From: Nitrospirota bacterium
Lineage (GTDB): Bacteria > Nitrospirota > Thermodesulfovibrionia > Thermodesulfovibrionales > UBA9159
Assembly: GCA_021790195.1 (NCBI GenBank)
Contig: JAJYIF010000019.1
Coordinates: 1-63,751 of the forward strand
Reading direction: 5' to 3'
DNA length: 63,751 nucleotides
Part shown: positions 46,863 to 57,172 of the stretch, in pieces
Layout: each line of letters opens with the position of its first letter
How positions within the stretch are numbered: position 1 is the stretch's first letter
The notes under the pieces: model-generated
Databases searched by the model: none
Told to the model about the DNA's origin: nothing
The model's input: the letters and a program-made list of their open reading frames with translations, nothing else
Program-made: the position numbers and the translations under genes

Positions 46863-47060
46863 TCACGCGCGGTTACAGGGCCTTGCGGCTATGGCGTTCC
46901 AGGTCTCTTCGTCGATCAAATCTTTATACTCTGAAATCCTGAAATCTTTTCTGCATTCCATGCAGCTCAGATAAACGGACCTTCAGCCGAAGACGAGCCT
47001 CAGTTCTCCGCCGCAGTGTTTGCAGGTCATTTGGGATTTTGTCTTGAATACGTTGAACAT
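46863..47060 (-). CDS. Dual-CxxC small selenoprotein, TGA at codon 26
   Basis: ATG 47060 opens MFNVFKTKSQMTCKHCGGEL; an in-frame TGA (46985-46983) is codon 26, and the same frame runs on through RSVYLSCMECRKDF...DEETW...RPCNRA to TGA 46863. The 65-residue product has Cys13/16 and Cys33/36 as a zinc-ribbon-like pair of CxxC motifs with the TGA residue between them. This pattern recalls the known dual-CxxC small (seleno)protein family. A SECIS-like hairpin begins 17 nt after the TGA. A promoter lies 10 nt upstream of the ATG. The alternative, a nonsense mutation, is less likely because frame and motifs continue intact. Confidence 0.72.
46951..46965 (-). promoter_or_regulatory. Bacterial SECIS-like hairpin
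   Basis: On the minus strand CTGCAT, loop GGA, ATGCAG: a perfect 6-bp stem with G first in the apical loop. The loop starts 23 nt after the TGA, within the 16-37 nt range described for bacterial SECIS. A further AUCU/AGAU helix lies below an internal loop. Confidence 0.65.
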
Positions 47061-47099: not shown

Positions 47100-47181
47100 G
47101 CATTGAAAAGGTCCTGTAAGATATTAAATTTGCAGTAATAAGGTTGACTGCTAAATGGCTTCCATGGCTGTGAAAAATACC

Positions 47182-47210
47182 TTGACAAAGAAATCTTCGT
47201 ATGGATAAAT
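47182..47210 (+). promoter_or_regulatory. Promoter of module copy A
   Basis: TTGACA (47182-47187), 17-nt spacer, ATAAAT (47205-47210). It is preceded by TGTGAAAAATACC, shared with the 62733-62750 promoter. Transcription would start near 47217. Confidence 0.55.
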
Positions 47211-47235
47211 AGACAACATGAGGGAGAACAAGATA

Positions 47236-48525
47236 ATGAGGCATCTGCTTAGTGTTTTTTTGGTACTTATCTTTGCAGTATCTGCATCCGCTCAGGGCGC
47301 TTATGATCAAGATATGTCGAGAGGTATGTCTGCCCTTGGCAAGAAGGACTACAGTTCGGCGGAAGATGCCTTCAGGGGGGCCTTAAAGGAATCGCCTGAC
47401 GACTACAAGGCAAATCTCTATCTCGGCATCGTCCTCAACAAGAAGGGAGAGAAGGAGGCCCAGAGCTATCTGAAGAAGGCCCTGCTTGTCAATCCCGAGG
47501 ACCCGAATACGAACCTGCAGCTGGGTATTTATTATTTCAACAGGTCGGTATATCCTGAGGCCAAGGATTATTTCGAAAACACCATAGATCTATCACCTGG
47601 GTCTGAGTATTCAACGGAGGCGAGGACGTATATTGAGAAGATGACAGGGCCGAAGGCAGCCAAGAGGTGGAGAGTGGACGCGGCCCTTGGGATGCAGTAT
47701 GACAGCAATGTCATCGTGGGGCCCGGTAATCAGCCCCCTCCGAAGGGGATATCCGGGAAGTCGGACTGGAGCGGAGTGCTCTACTTGAAAGGTCAATATG
47801 ATCTCATTACCTCGGACCGCTTCGTGGGGAGCGTGAGCTATTCCGCTTATCAAAGTCTGCACACGCGGTTGACCGATTTCAACATAACCCAGCAGGTCGG
47901 AGGATTGGACGCCGCCTATGCGCTGACTAACGGAGTGACTCTAAGAGGCTCATATGCATTTGAGTATGTCCTTGTGGGCGGGGATGAATATGATTATGCC
48001 CACACCCTTACGCCGGCTGTAATATTTACATACGGCAATGGTTTTTCGACGGTGCTCAATTACGCTTACAGCAAGGTCCATTTCTCAAACAGCGGCCTTT
48101 TTCCGACCAACTCGGACAGGAGCGGTTTTAACCACAGCGGCTCGATCGTACAGTATCTACCGTTGTTTGGCGGTGATTTTTTGACGGCGAGGTTGGGCTA
48201 TTCCGCCGACAAGGACGTGACGAGGGAAGAGTTTTGGGCCTATACCGGGAACAAGGGCTTCGGAGGTCTGACCTTCAAGATCCTGCCGACGCTCTCGGCT
48301 GATGTGTATGGAGAGTATTACAACAGGAGATACAAAGGGAAATATCCGCTGGACGGTCCCAGGAGGAATGACAATATTCAGACCTATGCATTGACGGTGA
48401 GCAAGAAGCTTTCAGATATATTCAGCGTAGTAGTAGGGGAGACCTATATCTGGAACAACTCGAACATAAATGTGTTTGAGTACAAGAGGTCCATAACAAG
48501 CGCGTTTGTAACAGCGAGGTTTTAG
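47236..48525 (+). CDS. Outer-membrane TPR/beta-barrel protein, Slam-like (copy A)
   Basis: The 429-residue protein has a clean signal peptide (cleaved near SASA/QG), about three TPRs at residues 17-125 (RGMSALGKKDYSSAEDAFRG, ANLYLGIVLNKKGEKEAQSY, NLQLGIYYFNRSVYPEAKDY) and a C-terminal region of alternating strands (about 140-429) ending in aromatic Phe (VTARF), as outer-membrane barrels do. TPR plus barrel is the layout of Slam/DUF560 translocators that move lipoproteins to the surface; the assignment is by architecture only. AGGGAG at 47221-47226 favours ATG 47236 over 47218. FecR and lipoprotein genes follow directly. Confidence 0.75.
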   Translation: MRHLLSVFLVLIFAVSASAQGAYDQDMSRGMSALGKKDYSSAEDAFRGALKESPDDYKANLYLGIVLNKKGEKEAQSYLKKALLVNPEDPNTNLQLGIYYFNRSVYPEAKDYFENTIDLSPGSEYSTEARTYIEKMTGPKAAKRWRVDAALGMQYDSNVIVGPGNQPPPKGISGKSDWSGVLYLKGQYDLITSDRFVGSVSYSAYQSLHTRLTDFNITQQVGGLDAAYALTNGVTLRGSYAFEYVLVGGDEYDYAHTLTPAVIFTYGNGFSTVLNYAYSKVHFSNSGLFPTNSDRSGFNHSGSIVQYLPLFGGDFLTARLGYSADKDVTREEFWAYTGNKGFGGLTFKILPTLSADVYGEYYNRRYKGKYPLDGPRRNDNIQTYALTVSKKLSDIFSVVVGETYIWNNSNINVFEYKRSITSAFVTARF

Positions 48526-49341
48526 ATGAAAAGAAATACGGTAATTTTCGTCCTTGTATTTTTGTTAATGTCCATGATGGTGCTTGGAGTTTCAGATGTT
48601 TTTGCAGTGCAGGACATAGGGGCAGTGGTAGCCCTGAGGGGGAGCGCTGTAATCGACAGGGACGCCAAGAAGATCGAGGCCAGGGTCAAGGAGGGCATTC
48701 AGTTGAAGGACATTGTCCAGACGGGGCAAAGGTCGAGGACGAAGATGCTTTTTATCGATGACAGTGTTTTGACCATGGGGGAGAACTCCAGGATGGTGAT
48801 AAAGGAATTCGTATACAGCAAGGACAAGCGGACCAGATCGATATTTAATCTTATGGACGGCAAGATGAGGTCGGTTGTAGGGAGGGCGGAGTTTGAGGTG
48901 CAGACCCCTACGGCTGTTGCAGCCGCCAGAGGTACAGTGTTTGATTGTGAGACAGGAGAGATGGCAGGGAAGGCATACACCACCTGCACATCGTATGAAG
49001 GCATAGTGGACATCCGGAGCACGGATCCTACAATTACGGGGAGGGTGAGTCTGAGACCGGGCATGACGGTTACTGTTATGAGCGGGCAGCCGATTCCAAC
49101 TCCGACACCCGCTGCATCGGCAGTCATTCAGTCCGGCCAGGCTGTCCAGCAGGGAACCGGAGCGGCCGGACCGGGAGGAGGAGTTCTTCCGATAATAGTA
49201 CCTCCACAGACTAATCCTCAGCCTCCGAATGTTACGCCGACGCTGCCGACAACGCCGGTGAATGTGGGGATAAACTTCCCGGGGACGACGCCGACACCGA
49301 CACCGACGCCTAACACGGGTTCAATACATGCAGGATGGTAG
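48526..49341 (+). CDS. Secreted FecR-domain protein (copy A)
   Basis: The 271 residues have a signal peptide (to about 27), then a FecR domain (about 30-170) with VVALRGSAVIDRDAK, DIVQTGQRSRTKMLFIDDSV and FEVQTPTAVAAARGTVFD. A Pro/Thr/Ala-rich tail with a PTPTPTP run follows and it ends GSIHAGW. No anti-sigma membrane part is present, so it is more like the exported, surface-linked FecR proteins than the iron regulator. Its ATG directly follows the barrel gene stop; the lipoprotein ATG comes 7 nt after its own stop. The C-terminal GSIHxGW recurs in the next protein. Confidence 0.8.
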   Translation: MKRNTVIFVLVFLLMSMMVLGVSDVFAVQDIGAVVALRGSAVIDRDAKKIEARVKEGIQLKDIVQTGQRSRTKMLFIDDSVLTMGENSRMVIKEFVYSKDKRTRSIFNLMDGKMRSVVGRAEFEVQTPTAVAAARGTVFDCETGEMAGKAYTTCTSYEGIVDIRSTDPTITGRVSLRPGMTVTVMSGQPIPTPTPAASAVIQSGQAVQQGTGAAGPGGGVLPIIVPPQTNPQPPNVTPTLPTTPVNVGINFPGTTPTPTPTPNTGSIHAGW

Positions 49342-49348
49342 GAAAACA

Positions 49349-50926
49349 ATGAAGATGAAAAGGACAGGCAAGGCAATAGCGATAGTTCTGGCGAGTTTTT
49401 TAACGGCATTTATATCCGGTTGCGGCGGGGGCGGGTCCGCATCGAATTCAGGCACGACTTCAGGCACGACAAAGGTAACCGTCAGCATAGACGAGTCCAA
49501 AGTTATGAGTTCTGAAGCTGGCCGGTCCTCTTCGGCGGTCCCTCAGAGTGTAGCCACGATAGTTGTTACGGTTTCGGGTTCGGGCATGCAGACACAACAG
49601 CAAACAGTCAATGTTTCTGGGCAGTCGGACATCACCATAACATTCGATGGTAATGATGCTATTCCAAACGGACCGAACAGGGACTTTTTTGCCGTTGCAA
49701 AGGATTCAAGCGGCGCGACCCTTTTCCAGGGTGACGCTAAGGCCGACCTCGACGGAACACCAATAAATGTTCCCATCAATATGAACTTCGTTGTCGAAGG
49801 CGAGTGGACTCTAACTACAACAGGCCAGGATGGACAGGCGAAAATCGCTTTTATTACAGTTACTCAGACGGGCAATTCTCTAACATTCTCGGGCACTGAC
49901 CCCGAAGGAGGCAACTTTACAGGGAGCGGCACACTGAATGGAAGTACTGTGCAACTAACGGTCACCGGCACCGATTGTGGAAATGCTTTTAACGCATCCG
50001 TAACCGGAACGCTTTCTGCTGATGGAAGAGCCATTAATGGTAACTTCACGCAAACCGGAGGCTGCGGCAGCGATTCGGGTTCGGTCGGAGGGGTAAGAGG
50101 TCATGTCAGTCCTGCGGCAACCCTGACCTCCGTAGCTGTTACGCCGACGAATCCGAGCATATCGGCAGGCACTACCCAGCAGTTTACGGCTACAGGCTCG
50201 TATTCCGACGGATCGACTCAGGATATAACCGCGCAGGTTGTCTGGAGTTCGTCTGACGCATCGGTAGCGACCATTAGCAATGCCGGTCTTGCCACAGGCG
50301 TTGCGGCAGGTAATGCAACCATTACCGCCGCATCCGGCAGTATTTCGGGGAGTGCGACTCTTACTGTGACATCTTCACAGAATCAGGGCGTGGTTTCGGG
50401 CACGGTCACATTGAATTCACCTACCGGACCGGCGATACCGGGGGTAACGGTAACGCTTTCCCAGCAAGGGACTGCGAAAGCTACAACAACAACTGACTCC
50501 AACGGCAAATACAGCATCACCGTGGCTGCCGGCAACTATACAATATCTTTTGCCAAGCCCGGTTTTACTACAACTCCAGCCGATATAACTATTGTTGCAG
50601 GACTTACACTGATTACCAATGCAACGGCGGTGTCGACGTCCCCCGTTCTGATTTCTATATCGGTCACGCCGACAAATCCGAGCATAGCCGTAGGCGCTAC
50701 CCAGCAGTTTACGGCCACGGGCTCGTATTCCGACGGATCGACTCAGGATATGACCGCGCAGGTTGCCTGGAGTTCGTCGAATACGTCGGTAGCGACCATT
50801 AGCAACGCCGGTCTTGCCACAGGCGTTGCGGCCGGCACCGCAACCATTACCGCCACATCCGGCGGTGTTTCAGGGACCGCTACCTTGACCGTGACTAACA
50901 ATGGATCTATACATGTTGGATGGTAG
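49349..50926 (+). CDS. Surface lipoprotein with Ig-like and CnaB-like domains
   Basis: The 525-residue lipoprotein has lipobox ISGC near 22, then GGGG and a Ser/Thr spacer. The family N-domain (to about 150: VTVSIDESKVMSSEAGRSSS, TVSGSGMQTQQQTVNV) is shared with 55272-57172 and loosely with 51003-53006. A beta domain with TLSADGRAINGNFTQTGGCG follows, then Big_2 Ig domain 1 (about 265-345), a carboxypeptidase-regulatory/CnaB-like domain (VVSGTVTLNSPTGPAIPGVT), Big_2 domain 2 and terminal GSIHVGW. Start at ATG 49349, set by TAGGAAA. Confidence 0.82.
   Translation: MKMKRTGKAIAIVLASFLTAFISGCGGGGSASNSGTTSGTTKVTVSIDESKVMSSEAGRSSSAVPQSVATIVVTVSGSGMQTQQQTVNVSGQSDITITFDGNDAIPNGPNRDFFAVAKDSSGATLFQGDAKADLDGTPINVPINMNFVVEGEWTLTTTGQDGQAKIAFITVTQTGNSLTFSGTDPEGGNFTGSGTLNGSTVQLTVTGTDCGNAFNASVTGTLSADGRAINGNFTQTGGCGSDSGSVGGVRGHVSPAATLTSVAVTPTNPSISAGTTQQFTATGSYSDGSTQDITAQVVWSSSDASVATISNAGLATGVAAGNATITAASGSISGSATLTVTSSQNQGVVSGTVTLNSPTGPAIPGVTVTLSQQGTAKATTTTDSNGKYSITVAAGNYTISFAKPGFTTTPADITIVAGLTLITNATAVSTSPVLISISVTPTNPSIAVGATQQFTATGSYSDGSTQDMTAQVAWSSSNTSVATISNAGLATGVAAGTATITATSGGVSGTATLTVTNNGSIHVGW
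50141..50370 (+). repeat. Big_2 domain DNA repeat, unit 1
   Basis: This stretch and 50666-50895 (offset 525) are highly similar, with long identical runs such as TATTCCGACGGATCGACTCA. They encode the two Big_2 domains either side of the CnaB-like domain and could recombine to delete it. Confidence 0.75.
50666..50895 (+). repeat. Big_2 domain DNA repeat, unit 2
   Basis: Second copy of the unit at 50141-50370, immediately before the terminal GSIHVGW codons. Confidence 0.75.
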
Positions 50927-53062: not shown

Positions 53063-53104
53063 ATTGTGGTGAATAGTGGCCTCATTCGGGAAGGTAGAAG
53101 TGAC

Positions 53105-53133
53105 TTGACAAGGGAATCTTCGTATAGATAAAT
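53105..53133 (+). promoter_or_regulatory. Promoter of module copy B
   Basis: TTGACA (53105-53110), 17-nt spacer, ATAAAT (53128-53133). It is similar to the copy A promoter from the -35 box on, but the sequence upstream is unrelated, so the two copies may be regulated differently. Confidence 0.55.
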
Positions 53134-53158
53134 AGACAACATGAGGGAGAACAAGATA

Positions 53159-54448
53159 ATGAGGCATCTGCTTAGTGTTTTTTTGGTACTTATCTTTGCA
53201 GTATCTGCATCCGCTCAGGGCGCTTATGATCAAGATATGTCGAGAGGTATGTCTGCCCTTGGCAAGAAGGACTACAGTTCGGCGGAAGATGCCTTCAGGG
53301 GGGCCTTAAAGGAATCGCCTGACGACTACAAGGCAAATCTCTATCTCGGCATCGTCCTCAACAAGAAGGGAGAGAAGGAGGCCCAGAGCTATCTGAAGAA
53401 GGCCCTGCTTGTCAATCCCGAGGACCCGAATACGAACCTGCAGCTGGGTATTTATTATTTCAACAGGTCGGTATATCCTGAGGCCAAGGATTATTTCGAA
53501 AACACCATAGATCTATCACCTGGGTCTGAGTATTCAACGGAGGCGAGGACGTATATTGAGAAGATGACAGGGCCGAAGGCAGCCAAGAGGTGGAGAGTGG
53601 ACGCGGCCCTTGGGATGCAGTATGACAGCAATGTCATCGTGGGGCCCGGTAATCAGCCCCCTCCGAAGGGGATATCCGGGAAGTCGGACTGGAGCGGAGT
53701 GCTCTACTTGAAAGGTCAATATGATCTCATTACCTCGGACCGCTTCGTGGGGAGCGTGAGCTATTCCGCTTATCAAAGTCTGCACACGCGGTTGACCGAT
53801 TTCAACATAACCCAGCAGGTCGGAGGATTGGACGCCGCCTATGCGCTGACTAACGGAGTGACTCTAAGAGGCTCATATGCATTTGAGTATGTCCTTGTGG
53901 GCGGGGATGAATATGATTATGCCCACACCCTTACGCCGGCTGTAATATTTACATACGGCAATGGTTTTTCGACGGTGCTCAATTACGCTTACAGCAAGGT
54001 CCATTTCTCAAACAGCGGCCTTTTTCCGACCAACTCGGACAGGAGCGGTTTTAACCACAGCGGCTCGATCGTACAGTATCTACCGTTGTTTGGCGGTGAT
54101 TTTTTGACGGCGAGGTTGGGCTATTCCGCCGACAAGGACGTGACGAGGGAAGAGTTTTGGGCCTATACCGGGAACAAGGGCTTCGGAGGTCTGACCTTCA
54201 AGATCCTGCCGACGCTCTCGGCTGATGTGTATGGAGAGTATTACAACAGGAGATACAAAGGGAAATATCCGCTGGACGGTCCCAGGAGGAATGACAATAT
54301 TCAGACCTATGCATTGACGGTGAGCAAGAAGCTTTCAGATATATTCAGCGTAGTAGTAGGGGAGACCTATATCTGGAACAACTCGAACATAAATGTGTTT
54401 GAGTACAAGAGGTCCATAACAAGCGCGTTTGTAACAGCGAGGTTTTAG
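53159..54448 (+). CDS. Outer-membrane TPR/beta-barrel protein, Slam-like (copy B)
   Basis: Identical in sequence to the copy A product at 47236-48525 over all 429 residues: signal peptide, three TPRs, C-terminal barrel ending VTARF. AGGGAG again precedes the chosen ATG. Full identity of two long paralogues implies very recent duplication or ongoing gene conversion, or a dosage need. It is followed directly by the FecR gene copy. Confidence 0.75.
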   Translation: MRHLLSVFLVLIFAVSASAQGAYDQDMSRGMSALGKKDYSSAEDAFRGALKESPDDYKANLYLGIVLNKKGEKEAQSYLKKALLVNPEDPNTNLQLGIYYFNRSVYPEAKDYFENTIDLSPGSEYSTEARTYIEKMTGPKAAKRWRVDAALGMQYDSNVIVGPGNQPPPKGISGKSDWSGVLYLKGQYDLITSDRFVGSVSYSAYQSLHTRLTDFNITQQVGGLDAAYALTNGVTLRGSYAFEYVLVGGDEYDYAHTLTPAVIFTYGNGFSTVLNYAYSKVHFSNSGLFPTNSDRSGFNHSGSIVQYLPLFGGDFLTARLGYSADKDVTREEFWAYTGNKGFGGLTFKILPTLSADVYGEYYNRRYKGKYPLDGPRRNDNIQTYALTVSKKLSDIFSVVVGETYIWNNSNINVFEYKRSITSAFVTARF

Positions 54449-55264
54449 ATGAAAAGAAATACGGTAATTTTCGTCCTTGTATTTTTGTTAATGTCCATGA
54501 TGGTGCTTGGAGTTTCAGATGTTTTTGCAGTGCAGGACATAGGGGCAGTGGTAGCCCTGAGGGGGAGCGCTGTAATCGACAGGGACGCCAAGAAGATCGA
54601 GGCCAGGGTCAAGGAGGGCATTCAGTTGAAGGACATTGTCCAGACGGGGCAAAGGTCGAGGACGAAGATGCTTTTTATCGATGACAGTGTTTTGACCATG
54701 GGGGAGAACTCCAGGATGGTGATAAAGGAATTCGTATACAGCAAGGACAAGCGGACCAGATCGATATTTAATCTTATGGACGGCAAGATGAGGTCGGTTG
54801 TAGGGAGGGCGGAGTTTGAGGTGCAGACCCCTACGGCTGTTGCAGCCGCCAGAGGTACAGTGTTTGATTGTGAGACAGGAGAGATGGCAGGGAAGGCATA
54901 CACCACCTGCACATCGTATGAAGGCATAGTGGACATCCGGAGCACGGATCCTACAATTACGGGGAGGGTGAGTCTGAGACCGGGCATGACGGTTACTGTT
55001 ATGAGCGGGCAGCCGATTCCAACTCCGACACCCGCTGCATCGGCAGTCATTCAGTCCGGCCAGGCTGTCCAGCAGGGAACCGGAGCGGCCGGACCGGGAG
55101 GAGGAGTTCTTCCGATAATAGTACCTCCACAGACTAATCCTCAGCCTCCGAATGTTACGCCGACGCTGCCGACAACGCCGGTGAATGTGGGGATAAACTT
55201 CCCGGGGACGACGCCGACACCGACACCGACGCCTAACACGGGTTCAATACATGCAGGATGGTAG
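54449..55264 (+). CDS. Secreted FecR-domain protein (copy B)
   Basis: Identical to 48526-49341: signal peptide, FecR domain, Pro/Thr-rich tail, terminal GSIHAGW. It abuts the barrel gene (copy B) and is followed 7 nt later by the out-of-frame lipoprotein gene, as in copy A. Confidence 0.8.
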   Translation: MKRNTVIFVLVFLLMSMMVLGVSDVFAVQDIGAVVALRGSAVIDRDAKKIEARVKEGIQLKDIVQTGQRSRTKMLFIDDSVLTMGENSRMVIKEFVYSKDKRTRSIFNLMDGKMRSVVGRAEFEVQTPTAVAAARGTVFDCETGEMAGKAYTTCTSYEGIVDIRSTDPTITGRVSLRPGMTVTVMSGQPIPTPTPAASAVIQSGQAVQQGTGAAGPGGGVLPIIVPPQTNPQPPNVTPTLPTTPVNVGINFPGTTPTPTPTPNTGSIHAGW

Positions 55265-55271
55265 GAAAACA

Positions 55272-57172
55272 ATGAAGATGAAAAGGACAGGCAAGGCAAT
55301 AGCGATAGTTCTGGCGAGTTTTTTAACGGCATTTATATCCGGTTGCGGCGGGGGGGAGTATCTGCATCGAATACCGGGACAACTAAGGTAACGGTCAGCA
55401 TAGACGAGTCCAAAGTTATGAGTTCTGAAGCTGGCCGGTCCTCTTCGGCGGTCCCTCAGAGTGTAGCCACGATAGTTGTTACGGTTTCGGGTTCGGGCAT
55501 GCAGACCCAGCAGCAAACAGTCAATGTTTCTGGGCAGTCGGACATCACCATAACATTCGATGGTAATGATGCTATTCCAAACGGACCGAACAGGGACTTT
55601 TTTGCCGTTGCAAAGGATTCAAGCGGCGCGACTGTTTTCCAGGGAGACGCTAAGGCCGACCTCGACGGAACACCCGCAAATGTTACTATACATATGGGTT
55701 TTATACTTTCAGGCGCGTGGTCTCTCATGCACACTCCTCAGGGGCAGACCGAGAAAGGCCCCCAGTTTTTCAATATGACCCAGACGGGTAACACTTTGTC
55801 GTTTACATTTTTTGATAGCGATGGGACCTCTCACACAGGCAGCGGCAGCGTCAACGGCGGCGACGTTCAGATGACTATCCCGGACAACACGGACAGCTGC
55901 AACAATCCGGCTCCGGTTACACTTACGGGGACTATTGCGTCCTATGGAATTACAATGACCGGCACATACACGACCCCCGGGACTTCCGGAAACTGCGCTA
56001 ACGGAGAAACAGGGACATGGACGGCTACAAGGGCCCAGTCTACTTCATTTGATATATCTGGCGGCTGGTCAGGGTTCCTGACGCCCCAAAGCGGCTCGGA
56101 GCAGGGCCCGTCCTGCATGACATTTACACAGAGCGGCAGCTATTTTACCTTTACGGGTGATTCCACCGGCAGCGGCACCCTGAGCGGCAACAATATTATG
56201 TTCCAATTCTCTCAGTCAGCGGGCGGCAACACCGGCTGCATTATAGATAATTATCTCACCGGCACGGTAGCCGCCGACGGCAATTCCGCGAGCGGTACAT
56301 TCACCACCGCTAATGATTGCGGCATCCCGCCCGTGTCAGGAACGTGGAGGGCGGTCAAGGGTGCATGTTCGACCCCGCCGCCAGCCACCCAGGGCACGCT
56401 GTCCGGCACAGTTACGGACGCTCTTACAGGATTGGCGCTTTCGGGCGCAATTGTCACCGTTACCCAGCAGGGGACGACGATTGCGAGCGCGACTACTGCG
56501 ACGGATGGCACGTATTCATTGAGTATGGCATCGGGCACATACACCGCCGCGTTCTCGACCTCCGGTTATATAATATCGACCATCGATAATGTCAGCATAG
56601 GAGCAAGTTCAACCACAACTCTTAATGCGGTTCTGAGTCCTGTTCCCACTGCGGGCCAGGTGAGGATTGTTCTTACCTGGGACTATTCGAAAGGGAACCT
56701 CGATCTGGATTCGTATCTGCAGGGGCCGCGAGCTCCCGGTGACACGACCGCCGGACCGTTTCAGACGTGGTATGGGTATGGGAGCAAGGTCTATAGTTTC
56801 AATGGCATTGTATACGCGCAGCTTGATCATGACTGGACAGACCCCGCCGCCGACGGGCCTGTACCGCAGGAGACGACAACGATCGAGCAGCAGGTAGCGG
56901 GGACTTACAATTTCTATGTCCACGATTTTACCGACACCGGCTCCGCGAACAGTGTTGCCTTGTCTAATTCGACTGCACAGGTAAAAGTGTATGTCGGCAA
57001 CACACTTGCCGCGACTTATAACGTTCCCACAAATCAGACGGGCACTGTTTGGACGGTGTTCCAATTAAGCGGAAGCAATCCTACCCCCGTCAATACGCTG
57101 TCCTCGGATGAAACGGTCCTTCAGAGCGCCTCGCGTGCTGGCTCGTCTCTGAAGAAAAGCAAGAAGAGGTAA
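55272..57172 (+). pseudogene. Surface lipoprotein gene out of frame at a G tract
   Basis: ATG 55272 starts the same signal peptide and lipobox as copy A, but a run of seven G (55350-55356) throws the frame into a stop after 39 codons. One more G would restore a 633-residue lipoprotein whose codons continue as VSASNTGTTKVTV. The downstream frame is fully open: family N-domain, two beta domains with a CG/GCI pattern, a CnaB-like domain (GTLSGTVTDALTGLALSGAI) and a YfaP/DUF2135-like C-terminal domain (VRIVLTWDYSKGNLDLDSYL). This suggests phase variation; sequencing error is the other option. Confidence 0.75.
55350..55356 (+). repeat. Seven-G tract, candidate phase-variation site
   Basis: An uninterrupted G7 directly after the lipobox Cys codons. 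In copy A the same place reads GGGGGCGGG, broken by C. Slippage by one base would switch the lipoprotein on or off. Confidence 0.7.

Follow-up and report, generated by a model that had tools for sequence, protein, structure and literature searches.

The established mechanism of selenocysteine (Sec) decoding in bacteria is the route formed by SelB, Sec-tRNA and the SECIS hairpin. The catalogued selenoprotein family closest to the locus described here is NCBIfam NF041197, the "dual CXXC motif small (seleno)protein", whose history is drawn here from three papers (PMC13188914, PMC9312934, PMC12013277). A 2026 review lists NF041197 as a selenoprotein family and equates it with the hypothetical protein OS_HP3, which it credits to a 2007 study of a symbiont of Olavius algarvensis (PMC13188914). 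The same review lists NF041197 a second time, as hypothetical protein DW, a name that stems from the deep-Sep paper (PMC12013277). The two entries, OS_HP3 and DW, carry differing motifs (RxU and GxU); one family may have been counted twice, or one of the accessions may be wrong.

The locus under study lies on the minus strand of the window, by which we mean the whole stretch of 63,751 nucleotides that was analysed. In a profile search, its product matched NF041197 with 61.0 bits (cut-off 40), residues 13-64 aligning to profile positions 1-52 of 53; this was the sole match in the whole genome, and 14 control genomes gave 0 matches. An earlier sequence-only reading of this DNA had pointed to a dual-CxxC small (seleno)protein family and proposed a database search, and the profile match bears it out. 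As in NF041197/OS_HP3, the match is full-length, Sec or Cys occupies the same column, this residue stands between two CxxC motifs (C13, C16, U26, C33 and C36), and a candidate SECIS follows the TGA. Unlike NF041197/OS_HP3, the window gene has 10 extra N-terminal residues, if translation begins at the ATG at 47060, and, after the second CxxC, AGA (Arg) in place of GGC (Gly), a change that keeps the stem via a T-A pair; none of these differences is essential. The locus is a further member of a catalogued bacterial selenoprotein family whose Sec form was already catalogued, and not a new family.

Other searches were negative. Phage records contained no match, and Pfam gave none above the cut-off for the product; the best-scoring entry, RIG-I_C-RD (17.4 bits, cut-off 25.6), was taken as chance matching of cysteines. 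Rfam, searched with both the window and the gene, returned nothing above threshold, which says little because, to our knowledge, no family for bacterial SECIS elements in general exists in Rfam.

The locus and its reading frame

When TGA is read as U, translation of 46863-47060 on the minus strand gives a 65-residue product, MFNVFKTKSQMTCKHCGGELRLVFGURSVYLSCMECRKDFRISEYKDLIDEETWNAIAARPCNRA, followed by a terminal TGA stop. The features discussed below are the following:

46863..47060, minus strand: predicted selenoprotein gene of family NF041197 (61 bits against a cut-off of 40; 66-gene alignment)
47013..47024, minus strand: first CxxC, CKHC, residues 13-16 (Cys columns invariant)
46983..46985, minus strand: in-frame TGA, codon 26, predicted to be read as Sec (homologue codons; sel genes in the genome)
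46953..46964, minus strand: second CxxC, CMEC, residues 33-36, whose TGC codons make the putative SECIS stem (Cys columns invariant; TGC 118/120 in TGA forms)
46951..46965, minus strand: candidate apical SECIS hairpin CTGCAT-GGA-ATGCAG, loop 46957-46959 (fold energy; family-level synonymous constraint)
46944..46972, minus strand: the same hairpin with a lower helix, 46969-46972 with 46944-46947 (minimum free energy fold of this sequence only)

Translation thus reproduces the frame that had been proposed from the letters, with its two CxxC pairs on either side of the TGA. It had also been said that gene callers would stop at the TGA and miss the gene, and indeed an ordinary caller would do so, because under the standard code no conventional minus-strand open reading frame of at least 40 amino acids covers 46863-47060. 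The true start is uncertain: it may be the ATG at 47060 (65 amino acids; 65 codons plus stop) or that at 47030 (55 amino acids), the latter lying near the start position of most relatives. The -35/-10 pair that had been noted upstream does exist (TTGAAT-17-TAGAAT, 47099-47071, a 9/12 match), but it provides no evidence of a promoter, because a 451-nt stretch holds two promoter-like sites against 0.7 (sd 1.0) expected, a count near chance.

Codon 26 and the hairpin among relatives

The bare pattern CxxC..TGA..CxxC occurs at two further sites in the window and the stem of the window gene is within chance (see below), so that homology, not the pattern, carries the case. Codon 26 was read in 66 distinct homologous genes and is TGA in 60/66 and TGT or TGC in 6/66; the closest relative found, a gene from a Nitrospirae MAG, also has TGA at this codon. 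Full-length sequences among the matches listed are either open or interrupted by exactly one TGA, with no internal TAA or TAG. C13, C16, C/U26, C33, C36 and R64 are invariant in the 66-gene alignment, and a C-terminal Cys, corresponding to Cys62 in the window product, is found in 56 of the 66 genes. Homologues with Cys or Sec aligned at position 26 had been named in advance as support for the Sec assignment, and this is the outcome: the 60 TGA genes and the 6 Cys genes all read on past the codon.

The hairpin itself is as the sequence-only reading had described it, with a 6-bp stem and a GGA loop beginning 23 nt downstream of the TGA. The predicted folding energy is -17.8 kcal/mol for the 55 nt that begin with the TGA (46931-46985; z -3.25 relative to dinucleotide shuffles) and -8.3 kcal/mol for 46938-46970. 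Checked by hand, the element fits the published bSECIS limits quoted in PMC13188914. Synonymous recodings of the window gene give an equally long stem 70% of the time and an equally low energy 21% of the time; a long stem so often persists because the second CxxC is encoded with two TGC codons that base-pair. Taken singly, the window gene thus has a stem that its Cys codons are enough to explain, and that is not significant.

The likeness to a SECIS that had been claimed for this hairpin does not, then, go beyond a codon-forced stem in the single gene, but it stands at the level of the family. In the 60 TGA forms, a stretch of 40 nt downstream of the TGA folds more stably than its synonymous recodings (mean z -1.74), against a mean z of -0.21 in the 6 Cys forms (Mann-Whitney P = 0.003), and the cysteines of the second CxxC are encoded by TGC in 118/120 cases in TGA forms, compared with 83/120 in the first CxxC and 33/54 towards the C terminus (P about 1e-10), and with 6/12 at the second CxxC of Cys forms (P about 4e-6), all these P values being optimistic because the sequences are related. 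Four base pairs at the centre of the stem (nt 19-22 with nt 28-31, downstream of the TGA) are found in 59 or 60 of the 60 TGA forms, one pair being made via T-G or T-A, and the pair next to them in 58/60; the lower helix of the window fold is not conserved among relatives. Judged from these alignments, the hairpin is at family level a real SECIS, under RNA-level constraint beyond coding.

Selenocysteine machinery and the decoding of codon 26

The sequence-only reading had further proposed looking for selA, selB, selC and selD in the same genome, and all four are present. SelA (529 bits) and SelB (377 bits) are encoded on one contig, SelD scores 349 bits, and a tRNA-Sec with anticodon TCA scores 72.9 bits; a second tRNA-Sec-like Rfam match (C36, 64 bits) was discarded as a tRNA-Cys by ARAGORN. 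The selD gene (genome G000, C40:63237-64154, L091) is itself a selenoprotein gene, with its TGA in SSCAGUASK, where SelD proteins usually carry Sec. By its gene content, the genome can be expected both to make selenocysteine and to insert it.

The NF041197 family is present in 152 of the 396 genomes of the phylum. In a tally over these genomes made by hand from match tables, with SelB counted when over the cut-off, family and SelB occur together in 140 genomes, the family only in 12, SelB only in 32 and neither in 212, which corresponds to an odds ratio of 77 and a P of about 1e-59, the latter overstated since related genomes are not independent. Two of the six Cys-form genomes, G188 and G242, are without SelA, and neither SelB nor tRNA-Sec is over the cut-off in them; in the remaining G338, G236 and G166, SelA and SelB are present. 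The sixth, G244 (contigs C105 and C97), has kept tRNA-Sec, but its selA is reduced to short, decayed stretches, one of them interrupted by a TAA, and its selB to fragments, as if this lineage were in the course of losing Sec. Cys-form and Sec-form genomes without the machinery were also compared by a Fisher test, which used approximate totals and is not relied on.

TGA-form genomes below the SelB cut-off number nine. SelA is present in four of them (G172, G205, G308 and G073); four others (G142, G215, G390 and G041) are without SelA and have tRNA-Sec over the cut-off, which we read as assembly gaps or recent loss. The last, G350 (91% complete; match at C6:30642-30797), has no SelA, SelB or tRNA-Sec over the cut-off; it counts against the Sec reading, and may reflect either missing contigs or a dead gene. 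Two full-length SelB genes over the cut-off were seen in G166 (C20:13633-15489 and C27:25933-27783) and also in G180, G282, G284 and G356, and may be either paralogues or a sign of mixed MAGs.

Homologue codons, sel genes and the family-level SECIS agree with the proposal, first made from the letters, that the TGA between the two CxxC pairs encodes Sec, and on this comparative evidence the locus is almost certainly an NF041197 selenoprotein gene in which UGA26 is decoded as Sec. In this gene the ribosome would reach UGA26, SelB with Sec-tRNA would bind the hairpin loop, and Sec would be inserted. It is highly improbable that this TGA simply ends translation, or that the gene is a decayed relic, with only a 25-residue peptide made and the downstream frame left as the remnant of a Cys form. 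Such a reading would fit a window-gene hairpin that alone does not exceed what the codons force, but the frame, its TGA and every later Cys column are preserved in 60 genes, TAA or TAG never stands at this site among the matches listed, the synonymous constraint is confined to TGA forms, and the family is tied to SelB. That the TGA is read as another residue, for example tryptophan under a changed code, is scarcely credible at all, given that stop-free relatives always have Cys at codon 26 with no Trp seen, that the genome has a tRNA-Sec with anticodon TCA together with the Sec machinery, and that TGA also serves as the terminal stop in 28/60 relatives.

Gene neighbourhood, predicted fold and possible role

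The window gene stands alone, with a convergent alanine dehydrogenase gene on one side and a divergent TPR protein gene on the other, neither of which suggests an operon; alanine dehydrogenase is also beside the gene in two near relatives (L005 and L052). No single conserved partner gene was found over about 57 related loci and the window. Neighbours at the related loci include a CxxCxxCC (PF03692) gene in 11, NYN/YacP in 11, and ribosomal proteins in others. The PF03692 gene, for a putative zinc/iron-chelating protein, lies just downstream on the same strand at its 11 loci, which come from four families of the order (L053, L054, L058, L061, L062, L063, L094, L096, L098, L107 and L108). We also would like to mention a near-perfect direct repeat of ~2.2 kb in the window (47180-49438 and 53103-55361, 5.9 kb apart), 100% identical save for one mismatch region at its very edge, each copy of which holds a TPR protein gene and a FecR-like gene, followed by a related but diverged Ig-like/lipoprotein gene; it may reflect either a recent duplication or an assembly effect.

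An AlphaFold2 model built from the 66 sequences (pLDDT 73, pTM 0.51; modest confidence) has strands at 19-24, 29-33 and 39-41 and a C-terminal helix; Sec26 falls in the turn that links strands one and two. A Foldseek search with the model gave nothing significant (E above 0.1 throughout), and VIA-align reached a Z of 4.3 at most, which is not significant, zinc ribbons being frequent among its rows. The model can be likened, with modest confidence, to a zinc ribbon whose hairpin turn holds Sec. Like small zinc-ribbon proteins (the RNA polymerase Zn ribbons, ribosomal S27e, the HypA zinc domain), the product is small and has two CxxC knuckles with short strands between them; unlike them, it has an invariant Sec/Cys in the inter-strand turn and no significant sequence or fold match, and its metal binding is a prediction.

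The position of Sec in the turn of the model, together with the frequent zinc-ribbon rows, leads us to favour, tentatively, a small redox or metal-handling role. In such a role, a metal site akin to that of a zinc ribbon would be made up of the two CxxC pairs, and the turn residue Sec26 would act as the reactive group of a small thiol/selenol protein; that Sec26 pairs with the semi-conserved C-terminal Cys62 is a guess. Somewhat unlikely, in our view, is a zinc ribbon with a structural or regulatory task, binding nucleic acid or a protein partner, in which Sec would serve as a metal ligand or a redox switch and the protein would not be a redox or metal-transfer catalyst. Zinc ribbons make up many of the weak fold matches, including those of RNA polymerase subunits, topoisomerase I, NrdR and the ATCase regulatory chain, and weak profile matches to S27e, HypA and zinc fingers point the same way, solved structures giving only weak zinc-finger fragments; but none of these matches is significant, and when a Sec/Cys that lies apart from the CxxC pairs never varies, it is more typically a reactive residue. 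Distinctly improbable is a protein of a new type for the handling of metal or selenium, in which a carrier resembling a zinc ribbon, its selenol placed in the hairpin turn, would work with the PF03692 CxxCxxCC protein that is its neighbour in several related families.

This case confirms that a selenoprotein gene cut short by ordinary gene callers can be recovered by reading the raw sequence. The window gene adds no new family; NF041197 is widespread in the phylum (152/396 sampled genomes), and the comparison across the phylum shows an exchange of Sec for Cys in this family, with the Sec machinery lost or decayed in three of the six Cys-form genomes.
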